Source: Pseudobdellovibrionaceae bacterium
Lineage (GTDB): Bacteria > Bdellovibrionota > Bdellovibrionia > Bdellovibrionales > Bdellovibrionaceae
Assembly (NCBI GenBank): GCA_019637875.1
Contig: JAHBUW010000010.1
Coordinates: 1-64,000, forward strand
Length of the DNA: 64,000 nucleotides
Direction of reading: 5' to 3'
Within the stretch, counting starts at the first letter, position 1. Every line of letters starts with the position of its first letter. The notes under the pieces were generated by a model. It saw nothing but the letters and a program-made list of their open reading frames with translations, was not told the DNA's origin and did not search any database. Made by a program: the position numbers and the translations under genes. Positions 12,923-28,216 of this stretch are shown one piece after another.

Positions 12923-13227
12923 AGAGCTTGAACGTTTTTGCTCTCGTACTTTTCGTTTCATCGTTCGCAAAAGCCGGCGGCGGCGGCGGTGGCGGAGTTC
13001 TGCTCAATTTTGTCAATGCGCAGAGCTTTTCTAGTGAGATGATCTTCCACATTAAGGAAGAAAAAGAATTTACGAGCATTGCTCACGCACAGCTCGTAGA
13101 TGGAGAATGGCAAGTTCAGAAAGTCGAACTACCCAAGTCGCTGCAGCAGTTCGATCCTGAGGCATCAGAAGCAATTGAAAAGTCCCGCGAAATCGGACAA
13201 TGGGTTCCGCTCTATAGAGATGAATAG
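12919..13227 (+). CDS. Small exported protein with a glycine run
   Basis: 102 residues. A signal peptide (LNVFALVLFVSSFAKA) is followed by seven glycines and then about 70 mostly charged residues ending WVPLYRDE. No family recognised. It begins in the ATGA overlap with the preceding frame and ends 8 bp inside the next gene. It is the last gene of host-like character before the A+T-rich island, so the left edge of the island lies at or near its 3' end. Confidence 0.6.
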   Translation: MKSLNVFALVLFVSSFAKAGGGGGGGVLLNFVNAQSFSSEMIFHIKEEKEFTSIAHAQLVDGEWQVQKVELPKSLQQFDPEASEAIEKSREIGQWVPLYRDE

Positions 13228-14272
13228 CGCGATCTTTGACGGCACAGGCGCCTGCCCATTTTGCAAACTTGAGTCTAAGTTCAAAAATGATTCGCGACGA
13301 CAGGTCTATGAATATACCTGTTCAGCTTGTGGTACGTACGTTTTATCATATGCCTCATATCTCTATCTGCAAGACAACGCGGATAAAATCAATTTAGCGA
13401 ATTGCATCGCCGAAAATATTGAATCGAACATTGAGTATGAAGACATCCGCTGCGCTTGGCTGATGGATGGCGACCCCAAGCCTAATTTTGCGCACAAAGG
13501 ACTCATCATAAAATCAATTAGGGATATTCAATCGAAGCCCATTAACCACGCAGAGAAGCTCCTCGGAATCTTACGCCTAATCGCACTTAAAGCACGAGAG
13601 AACAGCAACCCCTTTGACGACGTAGAGCTCTACACCATTGATTTATTCAGGCTCAGAATTCTTCATTCTTCTGAGTTATACTCATGGCTTTCACAAATGG
13701 CATTTGATGGGCTCCTGACTTATACCCAGCCAGAAGCGCATGAGGTTATCTATAACACAGAAATGCCTCAAACCAGCATTGAAGCGCGCGCAAAGCTTAC
13801 CCCAAGAGGATGGGCGCACCTTAGTGGCGTTAAAGCTACGGACTCCCGAAAGGTCTTTGTAGCAATGAAGTTTAACTGGACAGATACTGAGAGAGAAATC
13901 CAGATCAAGTTTCTTGAAACAGTAAAATCCGCATGTCGAAATTGTGGCTATCAAGCTGATATTGTGACGGAAGATCATGAGGGCCCAATTTTAGATAAGA
14001 TTATTGCCAGCATCAAAGAAGCAAGATTTGTGATAGCCGACTTTACGTACAATAACCGCGGCGTCTATTTTGAAGCTGGTTATGCCCGAGCCCTCGGAAT
14101 TCCCGTGATTCACACGGTAATGTATGGCGACACCGAGGACCCCAAGGACGACAACAAACACCTGCATTTTGATGTTAGACAAATCAACTATCTAGAGTGG
14201 GACTCATCGACTCGACTTAGAGAGCGTCTAGAAAGTCGGATTCGAGCCATCGTAGGTCCCGTGGCCGGATAA
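13220..14272 (+). CDS. Zinc-ribbon protein with nucleoside 2-deoxyribosyltransferase-like domain
   Basis: 350 residues from ATG 13220. Cys12-Pro-Phe-Cys15 and Cys34-Ser-Ala-Cys37 form an N-terminal zinc ribbon. Residues about 209-340 read RKVFVAMKFNW, later EARFVIADFTYNN and GVYFEAGYARALGIPVI, the pattern of the nucleoside 2-deoxyribosyltransferase-like/TIR-related Rossmann family (glycosidic-bond chemistry on nucleosides or NAD-like nucleotides). The Glu in YFEAGYA is at the position of the conserved acidic residue. It sits directly before a type III-like restriction system. A role as a nucleotide-acting defence effector is inference; the zinc ribbon might sense nucleic acid. Ribosome site is weak. 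Confidence 0.7.
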   Translation: MNSAIFDGTGACPFCKLESKFKNDSRRQVYEYTCSACGTYVLSYASYLYLQDNADKINLANCIAENIESNIEYEDIRCAWLMDGDPKPNFAHKGLIIKSIRDIQSKPINHAEKLLGILRLIALKARENSNPFDDVELYTIDLFRLRILHSSELYSWLSQMAFDGLLTYTQPEAHEVIYNTEMPQTSIEARAKLTPRGWAHLSGVKATDSRKVFVAMKFNWTDTEREIQIKFLETVKSACRNCGYQADIVTEDHEGPILDKIIASIKEARFVIADFTYNNRGVYFEAGYARALGIPVIHTVMYGDTEDPKDDNKHLHFDVRQINYLEWDSSTRLRERLESRIRAIVGPVAG

Positions 14273-14477
14273 AGGTCCATTCCTTGCCAAGTGCAGGATT
14301 GGCGCAGAAGAAATTTTTGAGACGATCCCCGGAATACTTCACAAGCTAAATAGATCTTAACTCAGTTCTGGTTTGGGCCAAGGTCCGATTATGGCCCGGC
14401 AAGCCTCTGTAATCATTATTGAATGACCGACGAGACCTCACCCCACATTTACATCTCGGGTTGTGATCGGAGGTCAC

Positions 14478-16808
14478 TTGTCACGTTCAAAAAAGAAAGT
14501 TCAGAAAATCGACTCTCGAAAGAGTGATGATATTCTCGATTTTCTGAATTTCATTTCTCGTAGAGCGAAGAGCAGTAACATAGACCAATATCTCCGGAAT
14601 GGCCAAATTGATGAGAATGACCTGTTTGAATGCGGAAAATACTTTCTCACCCACGGCATGGGGTGTGATGACAACGACTTCATTCCAAATTTGAAATTCA
14701 AAGAATTTGCATGCTACGTTCCCGTGAGCGAGAACTATTATCCTTGGGCGTTCTTTGCTGTCCCAAGCAAAATTAATGATCTCGGCGAATTCTTTGATCA
14801 GCATGGTCGAAACTATCTTCTGTCTGCGGATGCCGGGAAAAAGGATTTCGCCGTCGTCACGAATTTCAAAAAAGTTTTGGTTTTCGATCTGAATCACCAT
14901 CTTGACAAGTACGAAACAACGTTCGCTGGCCTGTACGACGCCCTAAATGGAACTGATGAAGATGGTTCCTTGAGAAAGTGGCAGTCGCTTCTCAATGACT
15001 TTGGGCCGGGACGAGCTGAAGAAAAGAAGAAGTCTAGGAGGAAGGAAGTCGTCGAGCACACTCATCCTAAGGAGTCGTCACCTGAGCTGCAGTATGTTAA
15101 ACGCTTCGGTCACATGCCTAGCTTCGAAACCCCAATCGGATATGACGGCAAGAACTTCCAAGAAACGTTTAAAACCAAAGAGCTTCCTTTTCTTACGACT
15201 GAGACGATTGACTGGGATGGCACTACGAAAGGCACAACAAACCGGATTGTTTGGGGTGATAATTTAGCCGTCATGAGGTCCTTGCCAGACGAATGTCTGG
15301 ACTTGATATATATTGATCCTCCATTTTTTTCTGGTCGTAACTACAACTGTATTTTTGGTGACGATGATGAGGTGAGATCCTTTAAAGATATTTGGGATGG
15401 CGGCCTCCCCACCTATCTTGCGTGGCTGAACGCTCGTTTGTGGGAAATGAAGAGGCTTCTTAAGTCAGACGGCTCCATTTTTGTTCATCTAGACTGGCAC
15501 GCCTGCCATTACGTTAAAGTTGAGCTGGACAAGATTTTTGGGTACGACAATCTAGTCGACGACATTGCATGGTGCTACTCCGGGAGCAACAACACCAAAA
15601 AGACTCTCCCTAAGAAACACGACACAATTCTCCATTATGCGAAGTCGTCGAACTACAAATTCAACTACAAAGAAATTCTGGTCGAGCCTCGCTCGACGGC
15701 CCGTTACTATGTCGATGAGAATGGCCGTAAATATACAAAAAAAGATGGGAAAATATATTACTGCAAAAATGATGGGAAGATTCCTGAAGACTACTGGGTA
15801 GATATCCAGCGCCTACATCACATATCAAACGAGCGAATTGGGTATCCAACTCAAAAACCCGAGGAACTAATCGAGCGGATCATAAAAATGGCTTCAAACT
15901 CCGGCGATGTCGTCGCTGACTTCTTTTCCGGGGGCGGGACAACTCTGGCGGTCGCCGAAAAGTTAGGTAGGAAATGGATAGGCTGCGATATCTCAAGAAT
16001 AGCTGTATCGGTAGCTAGAGATCGCCTGCAAACGGCATATTCGAAGCCATCGGGTATTACTCCATTGAGGCCGGGCCCATCAGTTGGTTTTGAAGTTCAA
16101 TACCACGGTGTATATGAACGAGACTTGGTCAGGGATATGGACGAAGTAGAGTATCGCACGTTTATTCTGAAATGCTATCAGGCTATTCCTAAATCCAAAG
16201 GCGACCTAATTCACGGCTTCCGAGAAGAACGAGCAGTCTTTGTCGCGCCATCCAATAAAAACTTGCGAAAAGACCACATAGAAGAATTCCACTCGGAACT
16301 CGCTCATTTCAAAATTCAAAACGGCGTCATTCTCTCCTGGAATATCTCAAAGGACGTCGAAAAGTATGTCGACGACCTTCGAAAAGGGTCTAATGGTCCC
16401 GATATTCAACTCGTTCAAGTTCGACTTGTCGACATTGACAGCAACGAATTCAAAGGGGACAACATTCGCTTCCTTAACAAGCCTGCCGCAATCATCAAGA
16501 TGAATCAAAAGTCAGGTCTCACGTGGACATTTGATGCAACTGCGTCGTGCGGAACGAATGGTGCCGACATCCACTACTACCAATGGGACTTCAATTATAA
16601 GAACAGGTTTGCTCCATCGACAAAACCAAATTTCAAGTCCGATCAAGATGGAGACGGTAATCCACTAAACGATCACAAGCGTATCGAGTACACTTTCCCG
16701 GCTGAGGGTGATTACAAAGTAGCTCTTCGAGTATTCGATAAATCTGGTGCGGAGGCCACCCAGTATGTGGCCATTTCTGTTAGTCAGAAATCGAAGAGAG
16801 CATCCTAA
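14478..16808 (+). CDS. Type III-like DNA adenine methyltransferase (Mod) with C-terminal PKD-like domain
   Basis: 776 residues from TTG 14478, chosen for GGAGG 4 bases upstream. Motif IV is Asp280-Pro-Pro-Phe (LIYIDPPFFSGRNY) and motif I is Asp481 in DFFSGGGTT. Motif IV before motif I is the beta-class order of type III Mod subunits, and DPPF implies N6-adenine methylation. About 200 residues between them would hold target recognition. The first 240 residues are extra compared with a normal Mod. Residues about 685-770 (YYQWDF ... YTFPAEGDYKVALRVFDKSGAEA) look like a PKD/Ig-like beta-sandwich, unexpected inside a cytoplasmic methylase. The helicase gene begins 4 bp after the stop. Confidence 0.88.
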   Translation: MSRSKKKVQKIDSRKSDDILDFLNFISRRAKSSNIDQYLRNGQIDENDLFECGKYFLTHGMGCDDNDFIPNLKFKEFACYVPVSENYYPWAFFAVPSKINDLGEFFDQHGRNYLLSADAGKKDFAVVTNFKKVLVFDLNHHLDKYETTFAGLYDALNGTDEDGSLRKWQSLLNDFGPGRAEEKKKSRRKEVVEHTHPKESSPELQYVKRFGHMPSFETPIGYDGKNFQETFKTKELPFLTTETIDWDGTTKGTTNRIVWGDNLAVMRSLPDECLDLIYIDPPFFSGRNYNCIFGDDDEVRSFKDIWDGGLPTYLAWLNARLWEMKRLLKSDGSIFVHLDWHACHYVKVELDKIFGYDNLVDDIAWCYSGSNNTKKTLPKKHDTILHYAKSSNYKFNYKEILVEPRSTARYYVDENGRKYTKKDGKIYYCKNDGKIPEDYWVDIQRLHHISNERIGYPTQKPEELIERIIKMASNSGDVVADFFSGGGTTLAVAEKLGRKWIGCDISRIAVSVARDRLQTAYSKPSGITPLRPGPSVGFEVQYHGVYERDLVRDMDEVEYRTFILKCYQAIPKSKGDLIHGFREERAVFVAPSNKNLRKDHIEEFHSELAHFKIQNGVILSWNISKDVEKYVDDLRKGSNGPDIQLVQVRLVDIDSNEFKGDNIRFLNKPAAIIKMNQKSGLTWTFDATASCGTNGADIHYYQWDFNYKNRFAPSTKPNFKSDQDGDGNPLNDHKRIEYTFPAEGDYKVALRVFDKSGAEATQYVAISVSQKSKRAS

Positions 16809-16811
16809 CCT

Positions 16812-18887
16812 ATGGCTGACTTTCTCACCTTCAGAAAATGGGAGGCTATTCACGGCGAGAAGTACGAAAGGTGGCGCTCAGGGAGATGGATTGAGTCTAG
16901 CAAGGAGACTCAAGTCTTCTTGAACCATCTTTTGCCACTAGGCATAGTTGAGGGCGAGAAGCGCCTTCTGCCCCATCAAGCAGAGACTCTGCAGCGGGTT
17001 ATATACAGTCACGAAATTCTGAAAGTTAATCCCGTACTTGCGACACTCGCGACAGGTACCGGTAAGACCCTGGTTATGGCATCAGTTATGGCTTGGCTTC
17101 TCTGCACAAAGAAGTCGGACACATTTCTAGTTTTTTGCCCAAATACGATCGTGCGTGATCGCCTGAAGCGTGATTTCGAAACGGGTTCAGTATTCGACGA
17201 GTTTAACCTAATTCCGCCCGAGTACGCTGCAATTCGAAAATCGATTCGTCCTTCGATCATTGACGGTTTTCAGAACCTTGCCAACTTGCGTGGCTTCAAT
17301 TTGATTGTTGCGAATCGACACCAGTTCCAGCAAGGGTACTCTGGAGGTCAAGACCACCTCAAGTTCTTACTCGACAATGGTGGCTCTATCGCGATTTTTA
17401 ACGACGAAGCTCACAATACCCGAGGCCCGGAATACAAGCGAACCTTGGATATCCTTAAATCAAGATCAGCATTTAGGTTTGATGTCACCGCGACACCGGA
17501 TCGAGCCGACAATCTTCGGCCAGAATCCCATGAGATCTATTCTCTATCCGTAGTCGAGGCAATAACAGGCAGCTATAAAAACAACTCCCATATTGATCGA
17601 AGATACAGCCGTTATCCTCGCCTCATTAAAGACGTTGTTGTTCAGCGACCCTCCATAAAACGGTATGGTGCGATTAGCCTCGGCGATGTGACCTTCAAAG
17701 ATCAGTCTTCAGGTCAGATTCTTCGGGTTCGAGAAATTGACTGGGATGATCTTCCAAGAAAGAAAAATCTCCAACTTGTGATGGATCCGGGTTGCATGAA
17801 AATGCAACTTCATCTAGCGGTCGAAGCGTGGAAGCGAAAAATTGAAGTAGCAACCGATCGTTATAAGCCTCTCCTCTTCGTGATTACACCTAGCATAGCC
17901 GGAGCCAAGCAAGCTGTCGATATGATGAAGAAGGAGTTCAAGCTGAACCCACTTCTTGTGGTCGACGATGAGACTGAGTATGAAAAATCTGAATTGCGGG
18001 AGGCTGCCGCCAAATTGGGAAGCGTGGAATCCCCATATGATAGCGTCGTATCGGTCTATATGCTCCGTGAAGGCTGGGATGTTCCTGAAGTTTCCGTAAT
18101 ATGTTTATTGAGAGGATTCGGCTCACCACTCTTTGCCCACCAAGTGCTTGGTCGTGGACTTCGGCTTATTCGTCGTAATGGGTGCGAAGGAGACCGGAAC
18201 GTTCAAGAACTCACAATCATTGATCATGAGGCGCTCGGCCTAGATTACCTTTGGGCCGAAATCGATGCACTTGTCTTAGAAGGCGATACAGTCATTCGCG
18301 AACGAGAAATTGAGCGAGACGAGGATGCAAAAGCGGGCGACAGCCAAGAGAAAGTCTATAGGGAGCAAACGGTTACAAGAGAAGATCTGCTCAAACTTTT
18401 AGAGGTGCCTGAGCCACAGCCAATAGAGATGCTCTCCTTTGAACGCTCCCTTGAGCTTCTGGATCAAGCCCTTGATTGCATCGCTGACTACCGACCGGAG
18501 AATCTCATCTTTGTCGAAGTTGAAATCGAAGGAATAAAGCGATTCCGCCCACAACGCCCTGAGGAGTCATCCACTCGCGGACTCAAGCTGACGGCGATCC
18601 CGACTCATGCTGAATCGCGGGAGCTTTTCGAGCAAACAAAAGGAATGATTTTGGAGTGGGCACGAGATCTTTCCCAACGATATGACCCGTTCGCAACCAA
18701 GACAAATTATCTGTATGCGATCATTCTCGAAAAAATTGAAGATATCCTTGGTGGCAAGACGACGCTCCCAGATATGGACTCTCATATTTTGTACGCTATT
18801 TCTTTGAGTATCCCGCAAATTAAAGAGTCCGTGGCGTATGAGCTGAATCAACGTATTTATGCGGAGGAGCTCCTCTATAATGGCTGA
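16812..18887 (+). CDS. Type III-like restriction helicase (Res) without nuclease domain
   Basis: 691 residues. Superfamily 2 helicase motifs: Walker A ATGTGKT near residue 80, DEAH at Asp198 (FNDEAHNT), TATP (FDVTATPDR), and the second RecA domain with VSVYMLREGWDVPEV and HQVLGRGLRL. This is the Res/type III restriction motor pattern, which tracks on DNA after Mod recognises an unmethylated site. The C-terminus ends in a helical region and shows no PD...ExK site; Res proteins normally end with one. The nuclease appears as the next, overlapping gene. Start ATG 16812 lies 4 bp after mod. Confidence 0.9.
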   Translation: MADFLTFRKWEAIHGEKYERWRSGRWIESSKETQVFLNHLLPLGIVEGEKRLLPHQAETLQRVIYSHEILKVNPVLATLATGTGKTLVMASVMAWLLCTKKSDTFLVFCPNTIVRDRLKRDFETGSVFDEFNLIPPEYAAIRKSIRPSIIDGFQNLANLRGFNLIVANRHQFQQGYSGGQDHLKFLLDNGGSIAIFNDEAHNTRGPEYKRTLDILKSRSAFRFDVTATPDRADNLRPESHEIYSLSVVEAITGSYKNNSHIDRRYSRYPRLIKDVVVQRPSIKRYGAISLGDVTFKDQSSGQILRVREIDWDDLPRKKNLQLVMDPGCMKMQLHLAVEAWKRKIEVATDRYKPLLFVITPSIAGAKQAVDMMKKEFKLNPLLVVDDETEYEKSELREAAAKLGSVESPYDSVVSVYMLREGWDVPEVSVICLLRGFGSPLFAHQVLGRGLRLIRRNGCEGDRNVQELTIIDHEALGLDYLWAEIDALVLEGDTVIREREIERDEDAKAGDSQEKVYREQTVTREDLLKLLEVPEPQPIEMLSFERSLELLDQALDCIADYRPENLIFVEVEIEGIKRFRPQRPEESSTRGLKLTAIPTHAESRELFEQTKGMILEWARDLSQRYDPFATKTNYLYAIILEKIEDILGGKTTLPDMDSHILYAISLSIPQIKESVAYELNQRIYAEELLYNG

Positions 18888-19221
18888 AAAAATCTATATC
18901 GAGGGCAAGAAGAGTCCTTATAACTTTGAAGTTTGCGACTCGAATGATGAAAAACGATATGCAGAGGCGCTAGATGCGGATGACAACGTTCTGGCATGGA
19001 CCAAATCTCACAAGATAGTAATTCGATATCGAAATAAGAAAGGAACGATTGGCCGTTACTATCCAGATTTCTTAGTTCGCCGTAAAAATCAAAATGAACT
19101 CGAGCTTGTTGAGATTAAAGGGGCTCACCTAAACAATGATCCAAATGTTGAGATGAAGAGAAAAGCCGCAGAAGACTGGTGTATTCAGCGCGGTATGAAA
19201 TACATAAAGATCGTCAAGTAG
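18880..19221 (+). CDS. Small PD-(D/E)xK nuclease, separate subunit of the type III-like system
   Basis: 113 residues. ATG 18880 overlaps the helicase stop by 8 bp and has GGAGGAG about 10 bases upstream, so it is translated with it. Residues Glu24, Pro62-Asp63 (YYPDFLVRR), Glu78 and Lys80 (LVEIKG) make a PD-(D/E)xK active site like that of TnsA/VRR-type nucleases or the C-terminal domain of Res. Lys95 and the helix KRKAAEDWC complete the usual fold. It most likely supplies cleavage to the nuclease-less helicase. It could instead act alone, but position and overlap argue for a complex. Confidence 0.85.
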   Translation: MAEKIYIEGKKSPYNFEVCDSNDEKRYAEALDADDNVLAWTKSHKIVIRYRNKKGTIGRYYPDFLVRRKNQNELELVEIKGAHLNNDPNVEMKRKAAEDWCIQRGMKYIKIVK

Positions 19222-19630
19222 AAGGCGTCGTCGGGACCGAGACCGATCTCGTAAATTTAATACCTCGTCGCGGCGGCGGCGTAATTTCAGACTCAAATCG
19301 GACAACAGCGAGGATCGGCCACCCCCACTTGGGCTTCTGTGCTTCCCATCTCCAAGGGGATTCCTTAGTTACCCGATGACGCAAAGAATCCTTGTAAAAA
19401 TCCTTCTCACTGTCGTAGGGAAAGCTTTCACCGAATATGACAGTACCGACAACACGAGACTTAAAACTACCTTCTTTACCCGGCGTCTCAATGATCGCCA
19501 TCTCTTGGCCTATATATTCCGCCGGAATAGGATAGGTCCGTGTTTCAATGGTCTTGCTGCCATCGAGAATCAGACGCGAGATCGGATACTGAATATTGAT
19601 TCCAGGAAGCCTCCGCTTCGATGATTTCAC
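19214..19630 (-). CDS. ASCH domain protein
   Basis: 138 residues. The sequence INIQYPISRLILDGSKTIETRTYPIPAEYIGQEMAIIET is the opening of an ASCH (PUA-like) domain, with the conserved GxKTxExR motif. VVGTVIFGESFPY follows as the next beta strands. ASCH proteins bind or act on RNA and modified nucleosides. The ATG overlaps the stop of the radical SAM gene by 4 bp (ATGA), so the two are made together. It converges on the nuclease gene with an 8-bp overlap. Specific function unknown. Confidence 0.8.
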   Translation of the reverse strand: MKSSKRRLPGINIQYPISRLILDGSKTIETRTYPIPAEYIGQEMAIIETPGKEGSFKSRVVGTVIFGESFPYDSEKDFYKDSLRHRVTKESPWRWEAQKPKWGWPILAVVRFESEITPPPRRGIKFTRSVSVPTTPST

Positions 19631-21030
19631 AGATTCAATTCCTTGTCAGCGGTTCGCTTAGGCTTCGCCAACTCTCTTGGGATTCCAAGTGGAACGTGAA
19701 GAAGGTCAGCATTGATCGGCTTATAGCAGTCTTTTCCTCCGACCTTAACCCGTTCATTGAAAGGGACTTGGCGCGAATCTGTTTTGAAGGCCTGGACGCG
19801 ATCTTTGATATTGCAGCAATCTTTTTTATTCGACCATAAATCTTGCGTGTTCCAAAACTGGTTCTCACCGTTCCCGATGTAACAAACCGTGAACTCCATC
19901 GCTCTCTTAATAGTGCGCTTTTTTACTTCTTCGTAGTAATAGCGGATTTCTTTGTCGCTATAGTGCCAATCGCGAGAAGACTTGTTCACTTGTCCGCGAT
20001 TGAAGAATTGGCGAAAGTTTATTCCAGTCGCTCGCTCAATATTATTCATTGAGAAGGAGCTGAATCGTCCGAAGCCGCAGATAATGGCTGGGACACCTGC
20101 ATCCGCGATCTCATCGACCATTTCGAACGAACTGTATTCCAGTCTGGGCACTGGTCCATCCCAAGCAAATGACGGATCTGTAAAATATCCGTCGGGATGA
20201 ATTGGGAACATAGGATTGATTCGGACAGCAGTCCAAAGACCCGCTTGATTCAATTTTTCTAAAGCCTTGAGGCGGCGTTTTGCAGAGGGCGCACCCGGCT
20301 CGATCTTTCTATTCAATTCATCATTTGTAGACGCGATGCTGAATTGAACTGAACACAGATCTTTTCGCAAAAGCTTTATATAGTCGTCATGGGCGACAAG
20401 ATCAGAGCGCGTGATAATCGTATATGGGTACTCATAGTGATTCAATATTTTCAGAAATTCCTGGGTGACTTTGTATTTAGCATCCATCCACATGAACGAA
20501 TCGCTCATGCAACCGACTCGAAGTGGAATCTTGCTTTCCATCACGTTACGCCACTTTGACTTTTTGTCTGTCTCAAATACCGTGTAGAAGATCTTCCTCA
20601 CTTCGTTAATGTCGATTGGAACTGGGATTGGATTGTTCCAATACCCATGCACAGTGAGCTCAGCCTTCGCATAGCAGTAGGTACAATTGTGAGAGCACCC
20701 ACGCCCATAGGTATCGACTTCGAATGCATAGAGGCATTGCTGGCAAGTCGAATGAGAGTTGACTAGCTTAAATGGATTGCTTTTTGTAATCCCACCGCGA
20801 ATCGGTCGGTCTTTATATCTCAGCTCAAGGTCTCGATAGATTGAATAGTCGAAGGTCGACGGGTATTTCGAAAGCTTGTCGAGCCGCTGAGCATCCTTGA
20901 TAAGCTTGTTGAATGTCGGAGTGAGAAGCGACATGTCCTCTTCAATAGCGAGTGACGGCGCCATGGGGCCAACCGGAAACTGAAGGATCCGTGCAGCTTG
21001 GTCTGTTTGATCAACCAACTGGTCTGACAT
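19627..21030 (-). CDS. Radical SAM protein, spore photoproduct lyase-like
   Basis: 467 residues from ATG 21030 (AGGG upstream). The radical SAM [4Fe-4S] motif CxxxCxxC is Cys112, Cys116, Cys119 in GRGCSHNCTYCYA; a further CxxC (Cys96, Cys99) precedes it and may bind a second metal. After it come SIASTNDELNRKIEPGAPS and RRLKALEKLNQAGL, typical of SPL/DNA-repair-photolyase-like radical SAM enzymes (the RxxEPxxPS segment). Such enzymes use S-adenosylmethionine to make radicals, often on nucleic acid. It is the middle gene of an RHH/radical SAM/ASCH operon with 20-bp and 4-bp overlaps. The actual substrate is unknown. Confidence 0.82.
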   Translation of the reverse strand: MSDQLVDQTDQAARILQFPVGPMAPSLAIEEDMSLLTPTFNKLIKDAQRLDKLSKYPSTFDYSIYRDLELRYKDRPIRGGITKSNPFKLVNSHSTCQQCLYAFEVDTYGRGCSHNCTYCYAKAELTVHGYWNNPIPVPIDINEVRKIFYTVFETDKKSKWRNVMESKIPLRVGCMSDSFMWMDAKYKVTQEFLKILNHYEYPYTIITRSDLVAHDDYIKLLRKDLCSVQFSIASTNDELNRKIEPGAPSAKRRLKALEKLNQAGLWTAVRINPMFPIHPDGYFTDPSFAWDGPVPRLEYSSFEMVDEIADAGVPAIICGFGRFSSFSMNNIERATGINFRQFFNRGQVNKSSRDWHYSDKEIRYYYEEVKKRTIKRAMEFTVCYIGNGENQFWNTQDLWSNKKDCCNIKDRVQAFKTDSRQVPFNERVKVGGKDCYKPINADLLHVPLGIPRELAKPKRTADKELNL

Positions 21031-21211
21031 TTCGCCCTGCTTTCTTGGTCTGCTTGCCAACCGCGTGAAGATTGATTTGCGGCTTTTTGATAAATTCGAG
21101 GATCGAAATTTTCGCGAGAGTCGTAAAGTCGATGAGCGGGTTAGAGGCTAAGAACTCCTCAACCAGCGCATCTTCTTTGGCGTTAAATCGAATTCCTCTG
21201 ACTTTGCTCAT
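21011..21211 (-). CDS. Small ribbon-helix-helix (CopG/Arc-like) protein
   Basis: 66 residues. VRGIRFNAKEDALVEEFLA then TTLAKISILEFIKKP fits a ribbon-helix-helix DNA-binding fold: one beta strand followed by two helices. It has a basic C-terminal tail (KQTKKAGRNVR). First gene of the radical SAM/ASCH operon, overlapping it by 20 bp. Probably the autoregulator of the cassette, or an antitoxin-like partner. Fold call is by pattern only. Confidence 0.6.
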   Translation of the reverse strand: MSKVRGIRFNAKEDALVEEFLASNPLIDFTTLAKISILEFIKKPQINLHAVGKQTKKAGRNVRPVG

Positions 21212-21347
21212 TGGGTCCCAGCATTTTTAAGGATGCTGATGTCCTAGAATGCCGTTAAACACTGTGCAACAGTATTAGACATTCCATGAAGGATCTTCAC
21301 CCCATCGAATGCACAGTCAAGCGAACGACATAGCAAGCACCAAAGCC

Positions 21348-22025
21348 TTAGATTAGGCCGGAGTTTTTCATATCCTTATAGGCTAGGTCGTGGATGTGAA
21401 GAACCCACTCCCAGATGATCGATTCCAACAGGCGTACATCATGTTTTTCTTTAAAACCCAGGTATTTCGTTATGCGCTGGAAGTTTTTGTAGACGACTCC
21501 GCTGTTAACGCAGCCTAAGCTGGAGAGCGCCAGTATGTTCCGGTTATTAGTCTGAGACTTCCACTTTCCCTGCCACTGGCTCCCATGCTTGAAGAGGTTT
21601 CCAGCGGATTCGATGACTTCGACCGGGGTCGGTTGCATCTGGGCGCTTTCTGGAGGCGACATTCTCACCAGATCCCCTCGATCTAGTGAGAATGAAAACC
21701 TAAAAGGTTGATTGTTCCTTCGAATATAAGAATCAAGTTTTTTTAGATTGGTGACTACAAGCTCAATCTGGCACTGGGAAACGACCAAAGCGGCCCCAAG
21801 TAGATCTTCTACCAGGCAATCTTCTTCGAAAAAGAGATCGTCGGCTTGGTCGCTAACTTCGTCATTATCGTCGGTGTAGCAAATTTCAATTTCTCGGCAG
21901 CGCCTGTCGGAAGCCTCAATTGCTTGCCCCAAAGGCTCCAGGACTTTCTTGAGTCCCTCAAAACGTGACTCTTCAAGTAGTTCATCCAGGAAGGAGCGGT
22001 ACCAATTTACTTCGCCAATCTTCAT
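21348..22025 (-). CDS. Unknown island protein
   Basis: 225 residues from ATG 22025, preferred over 22079 because GAGG lies 6 bases upstream. Acidic N-terminal half (ICYTDDNDEVSDQADDLFFEED), then a helical part (VSQCQIELVVTNLKKLDSYIRR) and a basic C-terminal half with WQGKWKSQTNNRN. No signal peptide, membrane segment or catalytic motif recognised. It is divergent from abiEi across an A+T-rich promoter region. Its place between known defence genes is the only clue to role. Confidence 0.65.
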   Translation of the reverse strand: MKIGEVNWYRSFLDELLEESRFEGLKKVLEPLGQAIEASDRRCREIEICYTDDNDEVSDQADDLFFEEDCLVEDLLGAALVVSQCQIELVVTNLKKLDSYIRRNNQPFRFSFSLDRGDLVRMSPPESAQMQPTPVEVIESAGNLFKHGSQWQGKWKSQTNNRNILALSSLGCVNSGVVYKNFQRITKYLGFKEKHDVRLLESIIWEWVLHIHDLAYKDMKNSGLI

Positions 22026-22152
22026 TGAATCCTCGTTACCATGCCAATTGATGACTGGACCAGTTTGGAAATAAACCAATACTTACAATATTATAGATGC
22101 TATATATCGCAAATATCTTAAAAATTAAGTAATTTGTGTATTCTGCCGACAA

Positions 22153-22185
22153 TCATATTATACTTAATTTATAAGTATAATATGA
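22153..22185. promoter_or_regulatory. abiE operator: 14-bp-arm inverted repeat over the start codon
   Basis: Perfect arms 22153-22166 and 22172-22185 with a 5-bp spacer (half-site TCATATTATACTTA). The right arm contains TATAAT and the candidate ATG 22182. AbiEi proteins are known to repress their own promoter by binding inverted repeats, so this is the likely autoregulatory site. Confidence 0.7.
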
Positions 22186-22817
22186 AGGAGCTTATGCGGC
22201 AACCCGCTGAACGTAGCAAGGAACTATTTGAGCTCGCAGAGTCTCAACAGGGCTTCTTCACAGCAAAGCAGGCTGAAAGCGTTGGCTACATTAAAACGAA
22301 TCACTCTTATCACGTAAAGTCAGGAAATTGGCTTCGCGAAGCGAGAGGCATTTATCGTCTCGCTCAATTTCCCACAACGCCTGATCAGCAAAAGATCCTC
22401 TACGCCCTCTGGAGCCAAAATCGCCAAGGGCAAGTGCAGGGAGTCTATTCTCACGAGACAGCCCTAGCTCACTATGGAATATCGGATGCCAACCCTTCAA
22501 AGCTCGACATGACTGTTCCAAAGTCATTTCGACGGACTGCTAAAATTCCTAAAGTCATACGACTACATCACGCCGATCTGACCAAAGATATGATTCTGGA
22601 GAGCCGAGGATTCCTGGTTACTAAGCCTAACCGTACAATCAGTGACATCATGACATGCGGTTGGGTGCCATTCGAAATTGTTCGCCAGGCATCCATTGAG
22701 GCGCTTAAACTGGGACTTCTGCAGAAGTGGGAAATTGAAAGCATTGTCGACCACGTCATTGCCCCATCTGAAATGCGGGTGCAGCTACAAACGCTGCTCA
22801 AGGAGATTCGCAAGTGA
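22182..22817 (+). CDS. abiEi: AbiEi-type antitoxin and autorepressor
   Basis: 211 residues from ATG 22182; ATG 22194, after AAGGAG, is an alternative. The N-terminal winged HTH (GFFTAKQAESVGY then YHVKSGNWLREARGIYRLAQFP) is the AbiEi_4-type antitoxin domain. The C-terminal part (VYSHETALAHYGISDANPSKLDMTVP, then IRLHHADL and RTISDIM) is the AbiEi antitoxin/repressor domain. In known type IV systems AbiEi counteracts the nucleotidyltransferase AbiEii and represses the operon. It overlaps abiEii by 4 bp and is preceded by a strong inverted repeat. Confidence 0.9.
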   Translation: MKELMRQPAERSKELFELAESQQGFFTAKQAESVGYIKTNHSYHVKSGNWLREARGIYRLAQFPTTPDQQKILYALWSQNRQGQVQGVYSHETALAHYGISDANPSKLDMTVPKSFRRTAKIPKVIRLHHADLTKDMILESRGFLVTKPNRTISDIMTCGWVPFEIVRQASIEALKLGLLQKWEIESIVDHVIAPSEMRVQLQTLLKEIRK

Positions 22818-23677
22818 ATCCATACAAAACGGCAGTCTCTTTTCGCCGTGCCCTTGAGGATAGAATTGCTCTCAAATCAAAAGAAGCTGGAATAGACATC
22901 CAGCGCCTCCGCCGGGATGTCGCCTTTGATCGTCTGCTAGTCAGGCTATTTTCGATGCCGACTCCTCCGTGGGTTCTCAAGGGTGGCTACGCCATGCAAC
23001 TTCGCACGGATAGCGCGAGGACGACGAAAGATATCGACCTCGCTCTGAAAGACGCAAAATTTCTTTTTGGCGATGAGGATTCCAAGCATCTAGCCATACG
23101 TGATTTGCTACTCAAGTATGCGTCCACGGATCATCAAGACTACTTCGAATTTCGCATCTCAGAGCCCACGCAGGAGCTTGCGAATGCTCCTGAGGGAGGC
23201 ATCCGCTTTAACATTGAAGCGCGACTTGCGGATCGAACGTTCGAGAGATTTCTCCTCGATATTGCAGCAGGAGACGTTTGGACTGAGCCTCTTGACCTGC
23301 TGAAGTCGAATGACTTGCTGGAATTTGCAGGCTTCGCACCTCGAGACTTCCCGGCAATTCCCAAGGAGCAGCAGTTCGCGGAAAAACTCCACGCATATTC
23401 ACTTCCGAGGCCGCCAGATAAGCCAAATTCTCGAGTCAAAGACCTAGTTGATATGGTTCTCCTAATTCAGGAGGGCTTAGAGCCCGAACGGACAGCTTCG
23501 TTTTTAGTGGATACTTACAAGCGACGAGCGACACACGCGCTCGACCTTTTCATACAAGCACCGCCAGATCACTGGGCGAAAATTTATCCGAAGCTAGCAG
23601 ACGAGTGTGGAATCTCCACAGATCTCGCTGAGGCGCTAAAAATCCTATCAGACTTCGCCAAAAAGCTGCGCGTCTGA
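22814..23677 (+). CDS. abiEii: AbiEii-type nucleotidyltransferase toxin
   Basis: 287 residues; GTG 22814 overlaps the antitoxin stop (GTGA) and AAGGAG precedes it. Nucleotidyltransferase motif: Lys56-Gly-Gly58 (VLKGGYAMQLR) followed by Asp73 and Asp75 (TKDIDL). Later EQQFAEKLHAYSLPR with RVKDLVDMVLL is the second AbiEii signature. Known relatives use nucleotides to block growth during phage infection (abortive infection). With abiEi it forms a complete pair; all key motifs are present. Confidence 0.92.
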   Translation: MNPYKTAVSFRRALEDRIALKSKEAGIDIQRLRRDVAFDRLLVRLFSMPTPPWVLKGGYAMQLRTDSARTTKDIDLALKDAKFLFGDEDSKHLAIRDLLLKYASTDHQDYFEFRISEPTQELANAPEGGIRFNIEARLADRTFERFLLDIAAGDVWTEPLDLLKSNDLLEFAGFAPRDFPAIPKEQQFAEKLHAYSLPRPPDKPNSRVKDLVDMVLLIQEGLEPERTASFLVDTYKRRATHALDLFIQAPPDHWAKIYPKLADECGISTDLAEALKILSDFAKKLRV

Positions 23678-24080: not shown

Positions 24081-25460
24081 ATGAGCACCACTCAGTCGCA
24101 AGCTATCAGCGCCATTCTCGAAGGCTTGGGCCGAGACAACATCTTCATGATTCACGGAAAAGCCGGAACAGGAAAGTCGTACTTGATTCGACAGCTTGTA
24201 GAAGAACTAGGAAAGACCTATAGCAAAGATCGAATCAAAGTTGTTTCTCCGACAGGGCTTGCTGCCTCGATTGTCAATGGGGCGACAATTCATCGTTTTT
24301 TCGGCCTTACCAATTTTAAGGAAGGAACCTACAAGACCGTCGGCAGAGCACTCGGAAATCACACCGTCAAAGAGAGAATCAAAAAAACAAGAATCCTCAT
24401 CATCGACGAAGTTTCAATGGTCCACCGAGACGTTTACACAGCTATCGCAACGATTGCAGCTCTTGTAAGTGGCGAACAAGTCAAAGGCGCAAACTGGGGG
24501 GCGATTCCATACCACAAAAAATCCGATCGAATTGCAGAATCAATAAAAAGCACATTCGGTCACATCAAGATCATCCTGGTTGGAGACCTTCACCAGCTTT
24601 CGCCGGTTGATCGTCGCGGATACAAAGATGTCTGGTTTTTTGACTCAAACAGATTTTCGGATGCCAAATGCAGACTCCTTGAACTGACTCAAGTCCATAG
24701 ATCCTCAGATGAAGAGTACCTTGAATTCCTCGAGCAGATTCGTCGTGGGAACAATAGCGATCTAGTTCGTCATTTTTTAGCAGAACGCGTTCAAACTCCA
24801 GACACTGACACCATGAGAATCTATGGAAAAAATGAGCAGGTGAATGAATGGAACTCCAAACAGCTTGACCGGCTGCCAGGTATCGCCGTTTCATTTACGT
24901 CAAACTATGTTGCTGCACTCTATTCGCCTGAGCAGGCAGATCCTATCCGAATCAAAAACTTCTCCTCGGCAGTTTTGGCAGAGTTGCGCAAGAATGCGAG
25001 CTTCCAGCCTGAAATTTCCCTCAAAGTAGGCGCCAGAGTCATGATTCTCGAAAATGACTCGGACAGTAATCGGTATAACAATGGTCACACTGGTTTCATT
25101 GTGCAAATTGCTGCAGATCACGTCTCGATCCAGTTCGACCACACGGGAGAAGTGGTCAACATCTATCCCAGCGAGCGCGAAATTCTTGACCCCGACTACT
25201 CGCTCATCGGATGGGAGCATAACTTGCCTCTGACTCTGGCGTGGGCAACGACAGTGCATAAGGCGCAAGGTCAGACCCTCGACCGAGTTGCCGTGGACCT
25301 AAGAGGTTTTTGGGAGCCTGGACAAGCCTACGTCGCACTTTCTAGATCGCGGAGGAAAGAGGACCTCATCGTGTTGGGATGGGATGAAAAAGCCATTATG
25401 CCTCCCAATCCACACCCAACTGAATGGCTACAGTCGCTCCGAATGAAAAGAGCAGGATAG
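24081..25460 (+). CDS. PIF1/RecD2-like superfamily 1B helicase
   Basis: 459 residues. Motif I GKAGTGKS (26-33), motif Ia VVSPTGLAA, motif II LIIDEVSM, motif III GDLHQLSPV, and near the C-terminus TLAWATTVHKAQGQTLD and AYVALSRSR (motifs V-VI). This is the PIF1/Dda/RecD2 pattern of 5'-to-3' DNA helicases. It acts on DNA in the cytoplasm. It stands alone between abiE and the HEPN gene. PIF1-like helicases occur both in repair and as parts of defence systems; the island location favours the latter, but no partner is clear. Confidence 0.88.
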   Translation: MSTTQSQAISAILEGLGRDNIFMIHGKAGTGKSYLIRQLVEELGKTYSKDRIKVVSPTGLAASIVNGATIHRFFGLTNFKEGTYKTVGRALGNHTVKERIKKTRILIIDEVSMVHRDVYTAIATIAALVSGEQVKGANWGAIPYHKKSDRIAESIKSTFGHIKIILVGDLHQLSPVDRRGYKDVWFFDSNRFSDAKCRLLELTQVHRSSDEEYLEFLEQIRRGNNSDLVRHFLAERVQTPDTDTMRIYGKNEQVNEWNSKQLDRLPGIAVSFTSNYVAALYSPEQADPIRIKNFSSAVLAELRKNASFQPEISLKVGARVMILENDSDSNRYNNGHTGFIVQIAADHVSIQFDHTGEVVNIYPSEREILDPDYSLIGWEHNLPLTLAWATTVHKAQGQTLDRVAVDLRGFWEPGQAYVALSRSRRKEDLIVLGWDEKAIMPPNPHPTEWLQSLRMKRAG

Positions 25461-25487
25461 CCAAGATCACTACAGAAACGTAAAAGC

Positions 25488-26792
25488 CTATTTTCTAAAT
25501 TCCAGAAGACTAAGTTCATTCCGTAGGCCTAATTCAAGCTTTTCAACCCACAAGTTAAATTCTTTTTTATCTTTGAAACGTGCTTTGTCTTGAATGGCGA
25601 AACAAATAAGCTGCCAGCTTATCACTGATAGCTCATTTATCTCCTGCTTAAGAACGGTCCTCTCCCCGTGATGAGAAATTGAGCTTCGGAGACCATAAAG
25701 CTTCTTAACAAGAGTCTTCATTTTTATTCTGTCATCAATTTTGTTGCACAACACAAGAGCGCATCCACTCGCGATAGTCGCGGCGATAGATTTCTGAGAA
25801 GTCTCAAAGAAGGCCTCGATAGCGGTTATTAGACTCAGCAATTTGTCAGCAGGATCAGGTAATTCTCGTGCATGAGAGTGAAAGTGAAGTGCCGTTAAGA
25901 TTGTTCCCTCAAATGTCTTTGTCGCGTCAAATTTTGCTTCTGTCGCCAAATCCGCAAGTGTCGAAATTTTTAGATCGTCTATAAGTTTCAGTGCCTTCTC
26001 GTCGATCACCAGAGGAGCCTTCGGCCCCACCACGGTTTGAGCCCATCGAATAGAATCATTCGCTCGTGTGAGCTCTAGCTGGAGACCCCTGAAGAATTCA
26101 CCTTTTATCCCAACACGAGTCTCAAAAAATCTCGGTGTCAAAGCGTCAGCCAGAAAATTTAGGATCGCAACGGTTAGGCGTAGTTCTTCACGCGCAATTT
26201 CCTGAGCCCGGGTACTTTCAGCAACCACAGTGCGTTCGGCGCAAACAGTATTGCTGAACTGGTTGATCATTTCATTTGTGCGATCGAGGCTCTCTTTTTT
26301 GGATACGGTGTCCATGTCTGCGTCTGCCATTTCTGAGATGGCAGCAGCGTCGGCACGCATTTTTGAGAGGTATTCATCTGTCACAGTAAAAAGTCGAATT
26401 TTCCCGAGCTTCAATTCAGGCGTTTTTAGCGCTATGCCGTCAAGAGGGATAAGGACTGTGGTCTCTGAGGCAAACTGACTGTACTTGTCACAAAGGTCAG
26501 AAAACATTGTCGCAATGCCTGAATTATCAGGGGTGCCGACATTCTTCGATACGATATGATCAACTTGCTTCTCTAAGTATTCTTGGGAATACTTCCTTAT
26601 CCATCCGTCCTTCTTCAATAAGTCGGAAATGATAGCCGACCGCTTTTCACACAGACCATCATCTAATGCGAACCCTGATGAGCCGTCAGTCCGCGGCCGC
26701 GGTATTTTGACTTTGGCATTTAGGGTTGAGGTTGCCCCATCGACGATCTCGATGAGGCGGGAAATGTATTTCTCTTTTTTCTTGGGATGCAT
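25488..26792 (-). CDS. ApeA-like HEPN domain protein
   Basis: 434 residues. The C-terminal region (KLLSLITAIEAFFETS, ATIASGCALVL, then KLYGLRSSISHHGE) matches the ApeA-like HEPN pattern; Arg369 and His374 form the RxxxxH motif of HEPN ribonucleases. The N-terminal 230 residues have beta-rich stretches (TTVLIPLDGIALKTPELKLGKIRLF), as in ApeA-type proteins where this part is a sensor. Such proteins cut RNA and stop translation after phage infection. Start ATG 26792. It is the last gene of the A+T-rich island. The HEPN call is by motif; activity is inferred. Confidence 0.75.
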   Translation of the reverse strand: MHPKKKEKYISRLIEIVDGATSTLNAKVKIPRPRTDGSSGFALDDGLCEKRSAIISDLLKKDGWIRKYSQEYLEKQVDHIVSKNVGTPDNSGIATMFSDLCDKYSQFASETTVLIPLDGIALKTPELKLGKIRLFTVTDEYLSKMRADAAAISEMADADMDTVSKKESLDRTNEMINQFSNTVCAERTVVAESTRAQEIAREELRLTVAILNFLADALTPRFFETRVGIKGEFFRGLQLELTRANDSIRWAQTVVGPKAPLVIDEKALKLIDDLKISTLADLATEAKFDATKTFEGTILTALHFHSHARELPDPADKLLSLITAIEAFFETSQKSIAATIASGCALVLCNKIDDRIKMKTLVKKLYGLRSSISHHGERTVLKQEINELSVISWQLICFAIQDKARFKDKKEFNLWVEKLELGLRNELSLLEFRK

Positions 26793-26884
26793 GTCTCAAT
26801 ATATTCTCGGCAGCCTTGCAAACGAACAGAAAACGCTCGCTTGTAGATTTGCCGCAAGGCAGTCGAACGCGGTGCAAATCAGGA

Positions 26885-28216
26885 TTACGATTGGGGTGCA
26901 GTCGGCGCAACATCCACCAAATACCCCCGCGCCTCCGGATACTTCTTCACGCAAACACAGGTACCAACTCTCAGTTTCTTAACCAAATTCGGATGTATGA
27001 CGAAGCCCTCGACAGTCTTCACGGACTTCATACCCGTCGGCCAATCGACCATGAGGCGTCGTTCGTACTGCTCCGTGGACTCCCGAACCGTCCGGGTGCC
27101 AGCCATGCCCGCGATGATCTCCGCACTCTCGGGTCGCTTCTGAAGAAACGCGTACAGCGTGGACATATTGCCCATGAGACGTCCCGCGAACTCACGACTG
27201 ATCCGCTCCAAGTCGCAAATCTCCTGGTGGGCGACGACAATGCTCATTTTCGAACTGCGAGCCCGATCCAAAAAGGCGATGAAATCCTCCGACGCCATAT
27301 CAGCGAACTCGTCGATGATGACTGTAAACGGAATCCTTTCCGCCTCGGGCACCTCGGCGTCGATCCGGGCGGAAACGGCCTTCAGATCCTGAAGGATAAA
27401 TCGACCGATCGCTTTGGCGGTTTCGCCGTACCGGCGGGAATCCAGGAACACATAGTTGATATGACCCTTCCGTACGGATTCGAAAAGATCGATCCCAGGT
27501 CCATCGTCAACGATCAGCTCTCCGAAGTCCGACAAGCAGATGCTCTCAAGTTGCGTTCGAAGGCCTTGCAGCGAACCCCACTGGTCGGAACTCTTGGCAA
27601 ATCGGACGCAATCCTCGAATATCCGCTTCTCTCGGGCGGCAGTCTCGGGCAGGCGACAAGCCAAATCCTCAAGAAACCGCGGTTCACTGGCCGCACGCAG
27701 AACAACACCAAGATTCAGCGAATAACCACCGTGATCCCGAAGCCAGCACAAACCGATCAACAACTTCAAAAGAAAACTCGCCGCCTGGTTCTTGTAGAAC
27801 TCTTCGGACCAGTTGAGCGCCATCATGATCCGATCCCGCAGCTGGTTCGCCGTCCCGTTACCCAGCAAATTGTAGCGATGGGACATCTTCAAGTCGGTCA
27901 AAGAAAAGACCCGCAGATCCTCAAGACGGTTCGCTTCCGCCGCGAACTGCGAAAACTTCAGGATCGTGTTCATGTCCGACTTCAGATCTATGAAGAGAAC
28001 CCCGCGGCCTTGCTCGATTCGCTGTCGGATGATGTGGGAGATGAGTACCGTCTTCCCAAAACCGGAAGCTCCGACGATATGGACGTGGTGATTGAGCTGC
28101 CCCTCCGTCAGCCATTCTTGCCGCCACAGGCTGCCTTTTACCTTTCCAAGTAAAACTGAATTCGGAGGCCGGCGGAAGTCTTTGGCCGCACCGACGATTT
28201 CTTTCGCCAGACTCAC
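26885..28216 (-). CDS. VirD4/TraD-like type IV coupling ATPase
   Basis: 443 residues. Walker A GASGFGKT (49-56) and Walker B TVIIDEFADM near residue 300, then SIVVAHQEICDL, match the TraD/TraG/VirD4 family of hexameric ATPases that feed DNA to conjugation machinery. There is no N-terminal membrane segment, so it resembles the soluble TraD-like forms. Its ATG overlaps by 4 bp the stop of the replication-relaxation gene. Composition matches the host rather than the adjacent island. No relaxase or pilus gene is in view, so it may be an orphan or a mobilisation remnant. Confidence 0.85.
   Translation of the reverse strand: MSLAKEIVGAAKDFRRPPNSVLLGKVKGSLWRQEWLTEGQLNHHVHIVGASGFGKTVLISHIIRQRIEQGRGVLFIDLKSDMNTILKFSQFAAEANRLEDLRVFSLTDLKMSHRYNLLGNGTANQLRDRIMMALNWSEEFYKNQAASFLLKLLIGLCWLRDHGGYSLNLGVVLRAASEPRFLEDLACRLPETAAREKRIFEDCVRFAKSSDQWGSLQGLRTQLESICLSDFGELIVDDGPGIDLFESVRKGHINYVFLDSRRYGETAKAIGRFILQDLKAVSARIDAEVPEAERIPFTVIIDEFADMASEDFIAFLDRARSSKMSIVVAHQEICDLERISREFAGRLMGNMSTLYAFLQKRPESAEIIAGMAGTRTVRESTEQYERRLMVDWPTGMKSVKTVEGFVIHPNLVKKLRVGTCVCVKKYPEARGYLVDVAPTAPQS

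Follow-up and report, generated by a model that had tools for sequence, protein, structure and literature searches.

We analyzed a stretch of 64,000 nucleotides (the window) from contig JAHBUW010000010.1 of a Pseudobdellovibrionaceae bacterium. Positions 19214-21211 carry a minus-strand operon of three genes encoding, in this order, a ribbon-helix-helix (RHH) protein, a radical S-adenosylmethionine (rSAM) enzyme and an ASCH-domain protein (Table 1). A reading made from the sequence alone had proposed that the three genes, overlapping by 20 and 4 bp, work together. This was borne out: the coordinates of the open reading frames (ORFs) were confirmed and the trio recurs in 38 distinct loci. The rSAM and ASCH genes share 4 bp (19627-19630). 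The overlap between the RHH and rSAM genes amounts to 20 bp with the rSAM start codon ATG 21030, at which most homologues align, and to 50 bp with the upstream TTG 21060, which would give a protein of 477 aa. At its stop codon, the ASCH gene overlaps by 8 bp with the end of a convergent restriction-modification (RM) set of type III-like character. Upstream of the trio lies a co-directional orphan gene (243 aa) without a family match in the libraries searched; as a candidate fourth member it was not kept beside the trio at other loci.

Table 1. Features of the window, with the trio and its partner RM system listed before other genes of the island
Feature	Position	Strand	Remarks
RHH-type regulator	21011..21211	-	66 aa; first gene of the operon; DUF6290 matches among homologues
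Radical SAM enzyme	19627..21030	-	467 aa from ATG 21030; PF04055 and a model with the fold of spore photoproduct lyase (SPL)
ASCH-domain protein	19214..19630	-	138 aa; proposed pocket motif GxKxxExR; Foldseek matches to ASCH structures
Candidate RHH operator, GTTGCACAGTGTTTAAC	21254-21270	-	tandem sites upstream of the RHH gene
Partner RM methyltransferase, N6/N4 amino-DNA, type III MOD-like	14463..16808	+	PF01555, E 2e-49
Partner RM helicase, ResIII-type, type III RES-like	16812..18887	+	691 aa; PF04851, E 1e-16
Partner RM nuclease, TnsA-like/RE_endonuc	18859..19221	+	PF08722, E 9e-11; PF19778, E 3e-7
Orphan gene upstream of the trio	21348-22079		243 aa; co-directional with the trio
Protein upstream of the methyltransferase	13100-14272		390 aa
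AbiEi/AbiEii pair	22134-23677		
PIF1-like helicase	24081-25460		
TraD/TraG-like coupling protein	26885-28216		

The convergent set (14463-19221) consists of a DNA methyltransferase, a helicase and a nuclease, which is the composition of an RM system. Homologues of the same set were found beside the trio at two other loci, with identities of 88% at L039 (at the contig edge) and 65-66% in L026 for the methyltransferase, and of 90% and 78%, respectively, for the helicase. The nuclease is split from the RES protein, its gene overlapping that of the helicase by 29 bp, and the same split is present in L039 and L026. The methyltransferase also carries a C-terminal PKD domain (E 3e-8), which is unusual for a DNA methyltransferase.

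The 38 loci, counted after removal of duplicates, belong nearly all to Bdellovibrionota, a phylum of predatory bacteria of which Bdellovibrio is a member. Among 148 related genomes searched, the rSAM protein was detected in 12 other genomes (E below 1e-75). Members of the ASCH family were present in 12 of the 148, the window's own genome included, and every one of these also encoded the trio rSAM; a single genome (G145) had a partial rSAM and no detected ASCH protein. The close relatives of the window were metagenome-assembled genomes (MAGs) of Bdellovibrionales. A scan of 84,980 species genomes yielded 35 loci, the named ones again nearly all from Bdellovibrionota, with some titles giving a broad taxon name only. 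Exceptions were one Cyclobacteriaceae MAG contig (L062) and one more distant Bacteroidales locus. As the trio was not found in the 194 other genomes searched in the order of the Cyclobacteriaceae MAG, this contig is possibly mis-binned. Across the phylum, the ASCH protein was present in 30 of 369 Bdellovibrionota genomes. Pairwise identities of the rSAM and ASCH proteins were correlated (r = 0.70, without correction for shared ancestry). The trio is a real, recurrent unit and more than a chance arrangement, which removes the concern raised earlier that no other genome might have it.

A phage- or plasmid-borne trio was considered and rejected. No ASCH match was found in the cultured phages or plasmids searched, and no trio rSAM in the phages and plasmids searched, which gave only distant rSAM proteins (24-33% identity among the matches listed). 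The rSAM relatives found in phages (27-40% identity) occur without ASCH.

About 34 of the 36 loci with any useful 3′ flank encode a DNA amino-methyltransferase, whole or as a fragment, no more than about four genes away on the ASCH side; a minority of the assignments are based on an NPPY-type motif or on partial ORFs at contig ends. Of 29 methyltransferase candidates scanned with Pfam, 22 matched Eco57I, 18 N6_Mtase (these two sets overlapping) and 5 N6_N4_Mtase. In individual cases, only a 298-aa fragment of a type IIG enzyme is left (L025), the downstream ORF is cut by the contig end and was judged by eye to be the start of an N6 methyltransferase (L062), or contig ends leave the RM neighbor unread (L051). 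At L037 no methyltransferase was found downstream; the same genome has a 1995-aa helicase on the far side of the rSAM gene, on another contig. The RM classes next to the trio comprise (i) type III-like sets (the window, L039 and L026); (ii) a MOD/RES pair (L031); (iii) IIG enzymes alone; (iv) IIG enzymes together with a 2000-aa helicase (DEAD, MZB); and (v) methyltransferases with McrB/McrC-like genes. In most IIG partners, the NPP motif is preceded by a PD...(E/D)AK-like motif, so that these proteins look like complete RM enzymes.

As a control, we inspected 13 loci of a housekeeping PA0069-like rSAM paralogue from related genomes, in 19-kb regions, and none had such a methyltransferase within about 9 kb. 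In 12 genomes with the trio (about 41 Mb), PF07669 and PF01555 gave 31 matches in total; such a match lay within 8 kb on the ASCH side at 9 of the 14 trio loci of these genomes, with about 0.08 expected by estimate. Clustering in defense islands would raise this expectation, though, we think, not up to the observed level. When RM class was mapped onto a tree of 33 rSAM proteins, at least 13 changes were required, with 4 being the least possible and 15.5 the mean for shuffled labels. RM class is hence close to random on the rSAM tree, yet an RM system is nearly always there. Moreover, the window's own RM family converges on the trio there and in L039, but runs in the same direction as the trio in L026, so that the linkage has survived an inversion.

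These observations bear on whether the trio could be an independent defense or maintenance operon that accumulates in defense islands with no functional tie to RM. The window indeed represents an island, carrying AbiE along with other mobile genes, and RM genes are common in islands. Against such hitch-hiking, RM methyltransferases are rare in these genomes and yet nearly always found on one side of the trio; the linkage held across about five RM classes, inversions and the repeated changes of partner; and no other genes of the island are kept next to the trio. We regard it as very improbable. The presence of an RM system through partner swapping and inversion is what most strongly indicates a functional tie, and the association as a whole is strong. 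A free-standing system, as the sequence-only reading had implied without mention of the RM neighbors, did not hold up: since nearly every copy adjoins an RM system, the trio is best read as a partner module of RM systems.

The rSAM protein was recognized by PF04055 (E 4e-12), and no curated family other than the Radical_SAM superfamily scored above its cut-off. Its AlphaFold2 (AF2) model (pLDDT 88.1, pTM 0.86) had as best Foldseek match in the PDB the spore photoproduct lyase 4fhf (E 7.5e-9, TM by target 0.59). The description of the enzyme as SPL-like thus stands for the fold, but not for the family: the protein scored 15.3 bits against a cut-off of 400 for TIGR04070, and 13.2 against 27 for PF20903, and membership in the SPL family was rejected on these values. 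The enzyme is not a standard SPL, which removes the other concern raised earlier.

The cluster motif CxxxCxxC corresponds to C122, C126 and C129 in the numbering of the 477-aa form, and further conserved cysteines are C106, C109, C393, C415 and C416. An additional CxxC ahead of the motif had been noticed earlier and is present (C106-x2-C109), but it is only part of the conserved set. Across 38 sequences, including relatives of 280 aa from phages, C109 never varies, and conservation reaches at least 90% for C393, C415 and C416, whereas C106 is not common to the phage relatives and comes in addition in the trio family. Judged by this conservation, C109, C393, C415 and C416 may bind a second (auxiliary) Fe-S cluster.

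The 280-aa rSAM relatives with the same pattern at C109, C393, C415 and C416 were found in phage contigs (L073-L152), whose sample codes we read as mostly rumen. Many of them have a homologous gene (about 187 aa) close by, directly after the rSAM gene in 26; its product looks ParB-like by eye and has no Pfam match. Genes of the PAPS-reductase family occur near a few. On a Bacteroidales contig (L071:541-6745), a DUF4357-rSAM fusion of the wider family, apparently cut or frame-shifted at its C-terminus, is followed by HsdR- and HsdM-type genes of a type I RM system; a search of 295 other genomes of the order did not recover the fusion again. Halobacteriovorax relatives with 33-41% identity (L067:7503-12234 and L072:6468-13551) lie in clusters with genes for QueC-like, aminotransferase class V, GDSL and carbamoyltransferase proteins. 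No ASCH gene is present at the distant loci L067, L068 and L072, whose surroundings look like clusters for sugars or surface polymers.

With a DNA-repair enzyme as the closest solved fold and a partner that varies but is nearly always an amino-methyltransferase, the trio might serve repair: the rSAM enzyme would reverse a lesion or an off-target alkyl adduct left by the partner methyltransferase, and the ASCH protein would find it. As a precedent, some eukaryotic DNA methyltransferases are accompanied by repair of the AlkB type. However, most RM methyltransferases are without such a partner, the SPL cut-offs are not nearly reached, and we know of no radical demethylation of this kind by an rSAM enzyme, so that repair appears unlikely. 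Of the modification or repair role that had been called plausible before, it is modification that the results support as plausible.

For the ASCH protein, the AF2 model (pLDDT 93.4) matched TTHA0113 (E 8e-6), EOLA1 and ZmASCH in Foldseek, and more weakly TRIP4 with double-stranded DNA, the N-terminal domain of McrB, and YqfB. The Pfam model PF04266 missed the protein of the window and matched 14 of 26 relatives weakly (best E 0.0018). The motif GxKxxExR, which in EOLA1 lines a pocket proposed to bind the base (PMC6803910), is formed by G24, K26, E29 and R31; K26, E29 and R31 are invariant in 26 sequences, and G24 is replaced in a few. Modeled ASCH/PUA-like beta-barrel and motif together place the protein in the ASCH superfamily, and the structural matches support the earlier view of it as a base-binding fold. 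Stand-alone members of the same family (about 40-45% identity) are also found in about 40 large uncultured phage contigs (L167-L206), amid runs of small genes. No rSAM was found in the 20 of these ASCH-carrying records that were searched, which may be fragments.

ASCH proteins in large phages would make sense if they acted in counter-defense against a viperin-like immunity, in which the rSAM enzyme makes an altered nucleotide harmful to phage replication and the ASCH protein, as a hydrolase or binder, protects the host. In line with this, YqfB of Escherichia coli, an ASCH protein, is named N4-acetylcytidine amidohydrolase in its PDB entries, and weak matches of the rSAM protein to pVip/viperin were obtained (17 bits; Foldseek E 4e-4). 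As a fold match, though, viperin falls far behind SPL, no nucleotide kinase lies alongside, and it would be left unexplained why the neighbor is nearly always an RM methyltransferase and not any defense gene. We therefore rate such immunity as quite unlikely. Assignment to prokaryotic viperin itself was rejected on the cut-off of NF038283 (17.3 bits versus 180).

The RHH protein of the window had no direct family match and no PDB match. Five of 11 homologues matched DUF6290 (best E 5e-4) and two matched VapB weakly. An RHH gene was found upstream of the rSAM gene in 24 of 33 loci and was not detected in the remaining nine, which keep rSAM and ASCH; these two genes are the core, and RHH is dispensable. 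The candidate operator has the consensus GTtaAACAaTGTTtaAC, that is, two GTTnAAC palindromes 10 bp apart, a shape used by RHH dimers. Because the operator matrix was trained on these same sites, the search was repeated in leave-one-out fashion; in 16 of 33 loci, against 0.27 expected, the top-scoring site of the entire locus then lay within the 110-nt stretch where the operator should be. Of the 24 loci with RHH, 22 had an operator above threshold, compared with one of the nine without. It was also looked for at the RM promoters and was not found there. As the operator tracks the RHH gene and was not found at RM promoters, the most likely role of the RHH protein is to repress the operon to which it belongs, and not the RM genes, by binding the tandem GTTnAAC sites before its gene. 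The regulatory role suggested for it earlier is supported by this co-occurrence.

An autoregulated operon that begins with RHH, homologues of which weakly match antitoxin families, would also suit an rSAM enzyme that acts on protein or in the regulation of the RM enzyme, for example by radical modification of the restriction enzyme or within an addiction module with an antitoxin-like RHH. Some Foldseek matches of the rSAM model are likewise enzymes acting on proteins or peptides (PFL-activating enzyme, SuiB). Yet, unlike an antitoxin, RHH is undetected where rSAM, ASCH and RM remain; the methyltransferase is the only domain common to the partners, and ASCH is a nucleic-acid or nucleoside fold. 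This explanation is improbable in our judgment. A type II toxin-antitoxin module was rejected, the regulator not always being kept.

The trio was not described in the model libraries or the open-access literature searched, in agreement with the earlier statement that no named defense or modification system is known to have this composition. Among the defense models of PADLOC 2.0, only the pVip match was obtained for rSAM, and none for ASCH or RHH. Compared with SPL (PF20903/TIGR04070), an enzyme acting on DNA with which it has the rSAM fold in common, the trio rSAM differs by the extra cysteines C109, C393, C415 and C416, by its Bdellovibrionota host and by its RM and ASCH neighbors. The closest curated families by rSAM core are those of PA0069/Rv2578c-family rSAM proteins and rSAM mobile pair B (NF033668, NF038135 and TIGR04470), for which the scores of 94.7, 77.9 and 50 bits compare with cut-offs of 360, 430 and 410; the PA0069-like paralogue is encoded apart from the trio rSAM in the same genomes, away from RM genes. 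EOLA1, TTHA0113, ZmASCH and YqfB have the fold in common with the trio ASCH, and EOLA1-type proteins also the motif GxKxxExR, but identities are only 13-20%, and the trio ASCH adjoins rSAM and RM genes.

EVE/ASCH proteins near type I RM genes are already known (PMC7641849) and likewise place a base reader with a PUA/ASCH-group fold next to RM genes. No rSAM-RHH-ASCH trio was found there, however, and the partners of the trio are mainly IIG, type III-like and McrBC-associated methyltransferases. Dnd phosphorothioation and Dpd deazaguanine modification tie DNA modification to restriction, as proposed here for the trio, with different enzymes; DndC is not a member of the radical SAM superfamily (PMC10853773). 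Prokaryotic viperin is also an rSAM enzyme in a defense setting, from which the trio differs by a match of only 17 bits, the lack of a kinase and its association with RM.

On the far side of the trio from the RM genes, the window encodes an AbiEi/AbiEii pair. The protein encoded upstream of the methyltransferase has a weak Lar-like zinc ribbon and a C-terminus weakly resembling TIR or nucleoside deoxyribosyltransferase domains, and is a possible effector candidate on the basis of these similarities. The PIF1-like helicase and the TraD/TraG-like coupling protein (24081-28216) suggest a mobile element around the island.

Taken together, the trio is probably an undescribed partner module of RM systems, acting on DNA marked by them. 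Because its varied partners share only the amino-methyltransferase, the simplest common substrate would be the methylated base (N6-methyladenine or N4-methylcytosine) or the methyltransferase itself. The reading that we tentatively favor, and consider quite possible though short of probable, is that rSAM and ASCH read and further modify bases marked by the partner methyltransferase, setting a second host mark. The ASCH protein would bind the modified base, probably flipped out, via its GxKxxExR pocket, and the rSAM enzyme, with its SPL-like fold and a likely second Fe-S cluster at C109, C393, C415 and C416, would carry out radical chemistry on the bound base. The most likely outcome would be further modification at sites already methylated, and thus a host mark that phage cannot easily copy. 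More doubtful is the claim in its full extent, namely that an rSAM enzyme with a second Fe-S cluster, guided by ASCH, hypermodifies methylated bases at RM sites as an add-on common to unrelated RM classes, and so represents an undescribed class of DNA base modification.

Several points weigh against the proposed second mark. Many RM classes work without such a cassette, so that it is not essential to restriction. The absence of the operator at RM promoters gives no sign of shared regulation of trio and RM genes. ASCH proteins of the same family occur without rSAM in the large phage contigs, the target of rSAM and ASCH might be RNA, free nucleotides or protein, and the putative auxiliary cluster is read from cysteine conservation only.

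That these partner genes remain next to RM systems as the RM class changes suggests an undescribed step in the restriction-modification of Bdellovibrionota. Should this step prove to modify methylated DNA by a radical route, it would be a categorically new kind of DNA base chemistry, and it would offer a new answer to the question of how a host tells its own methylated DNA from phage DNA that has escaped with the same methylation.

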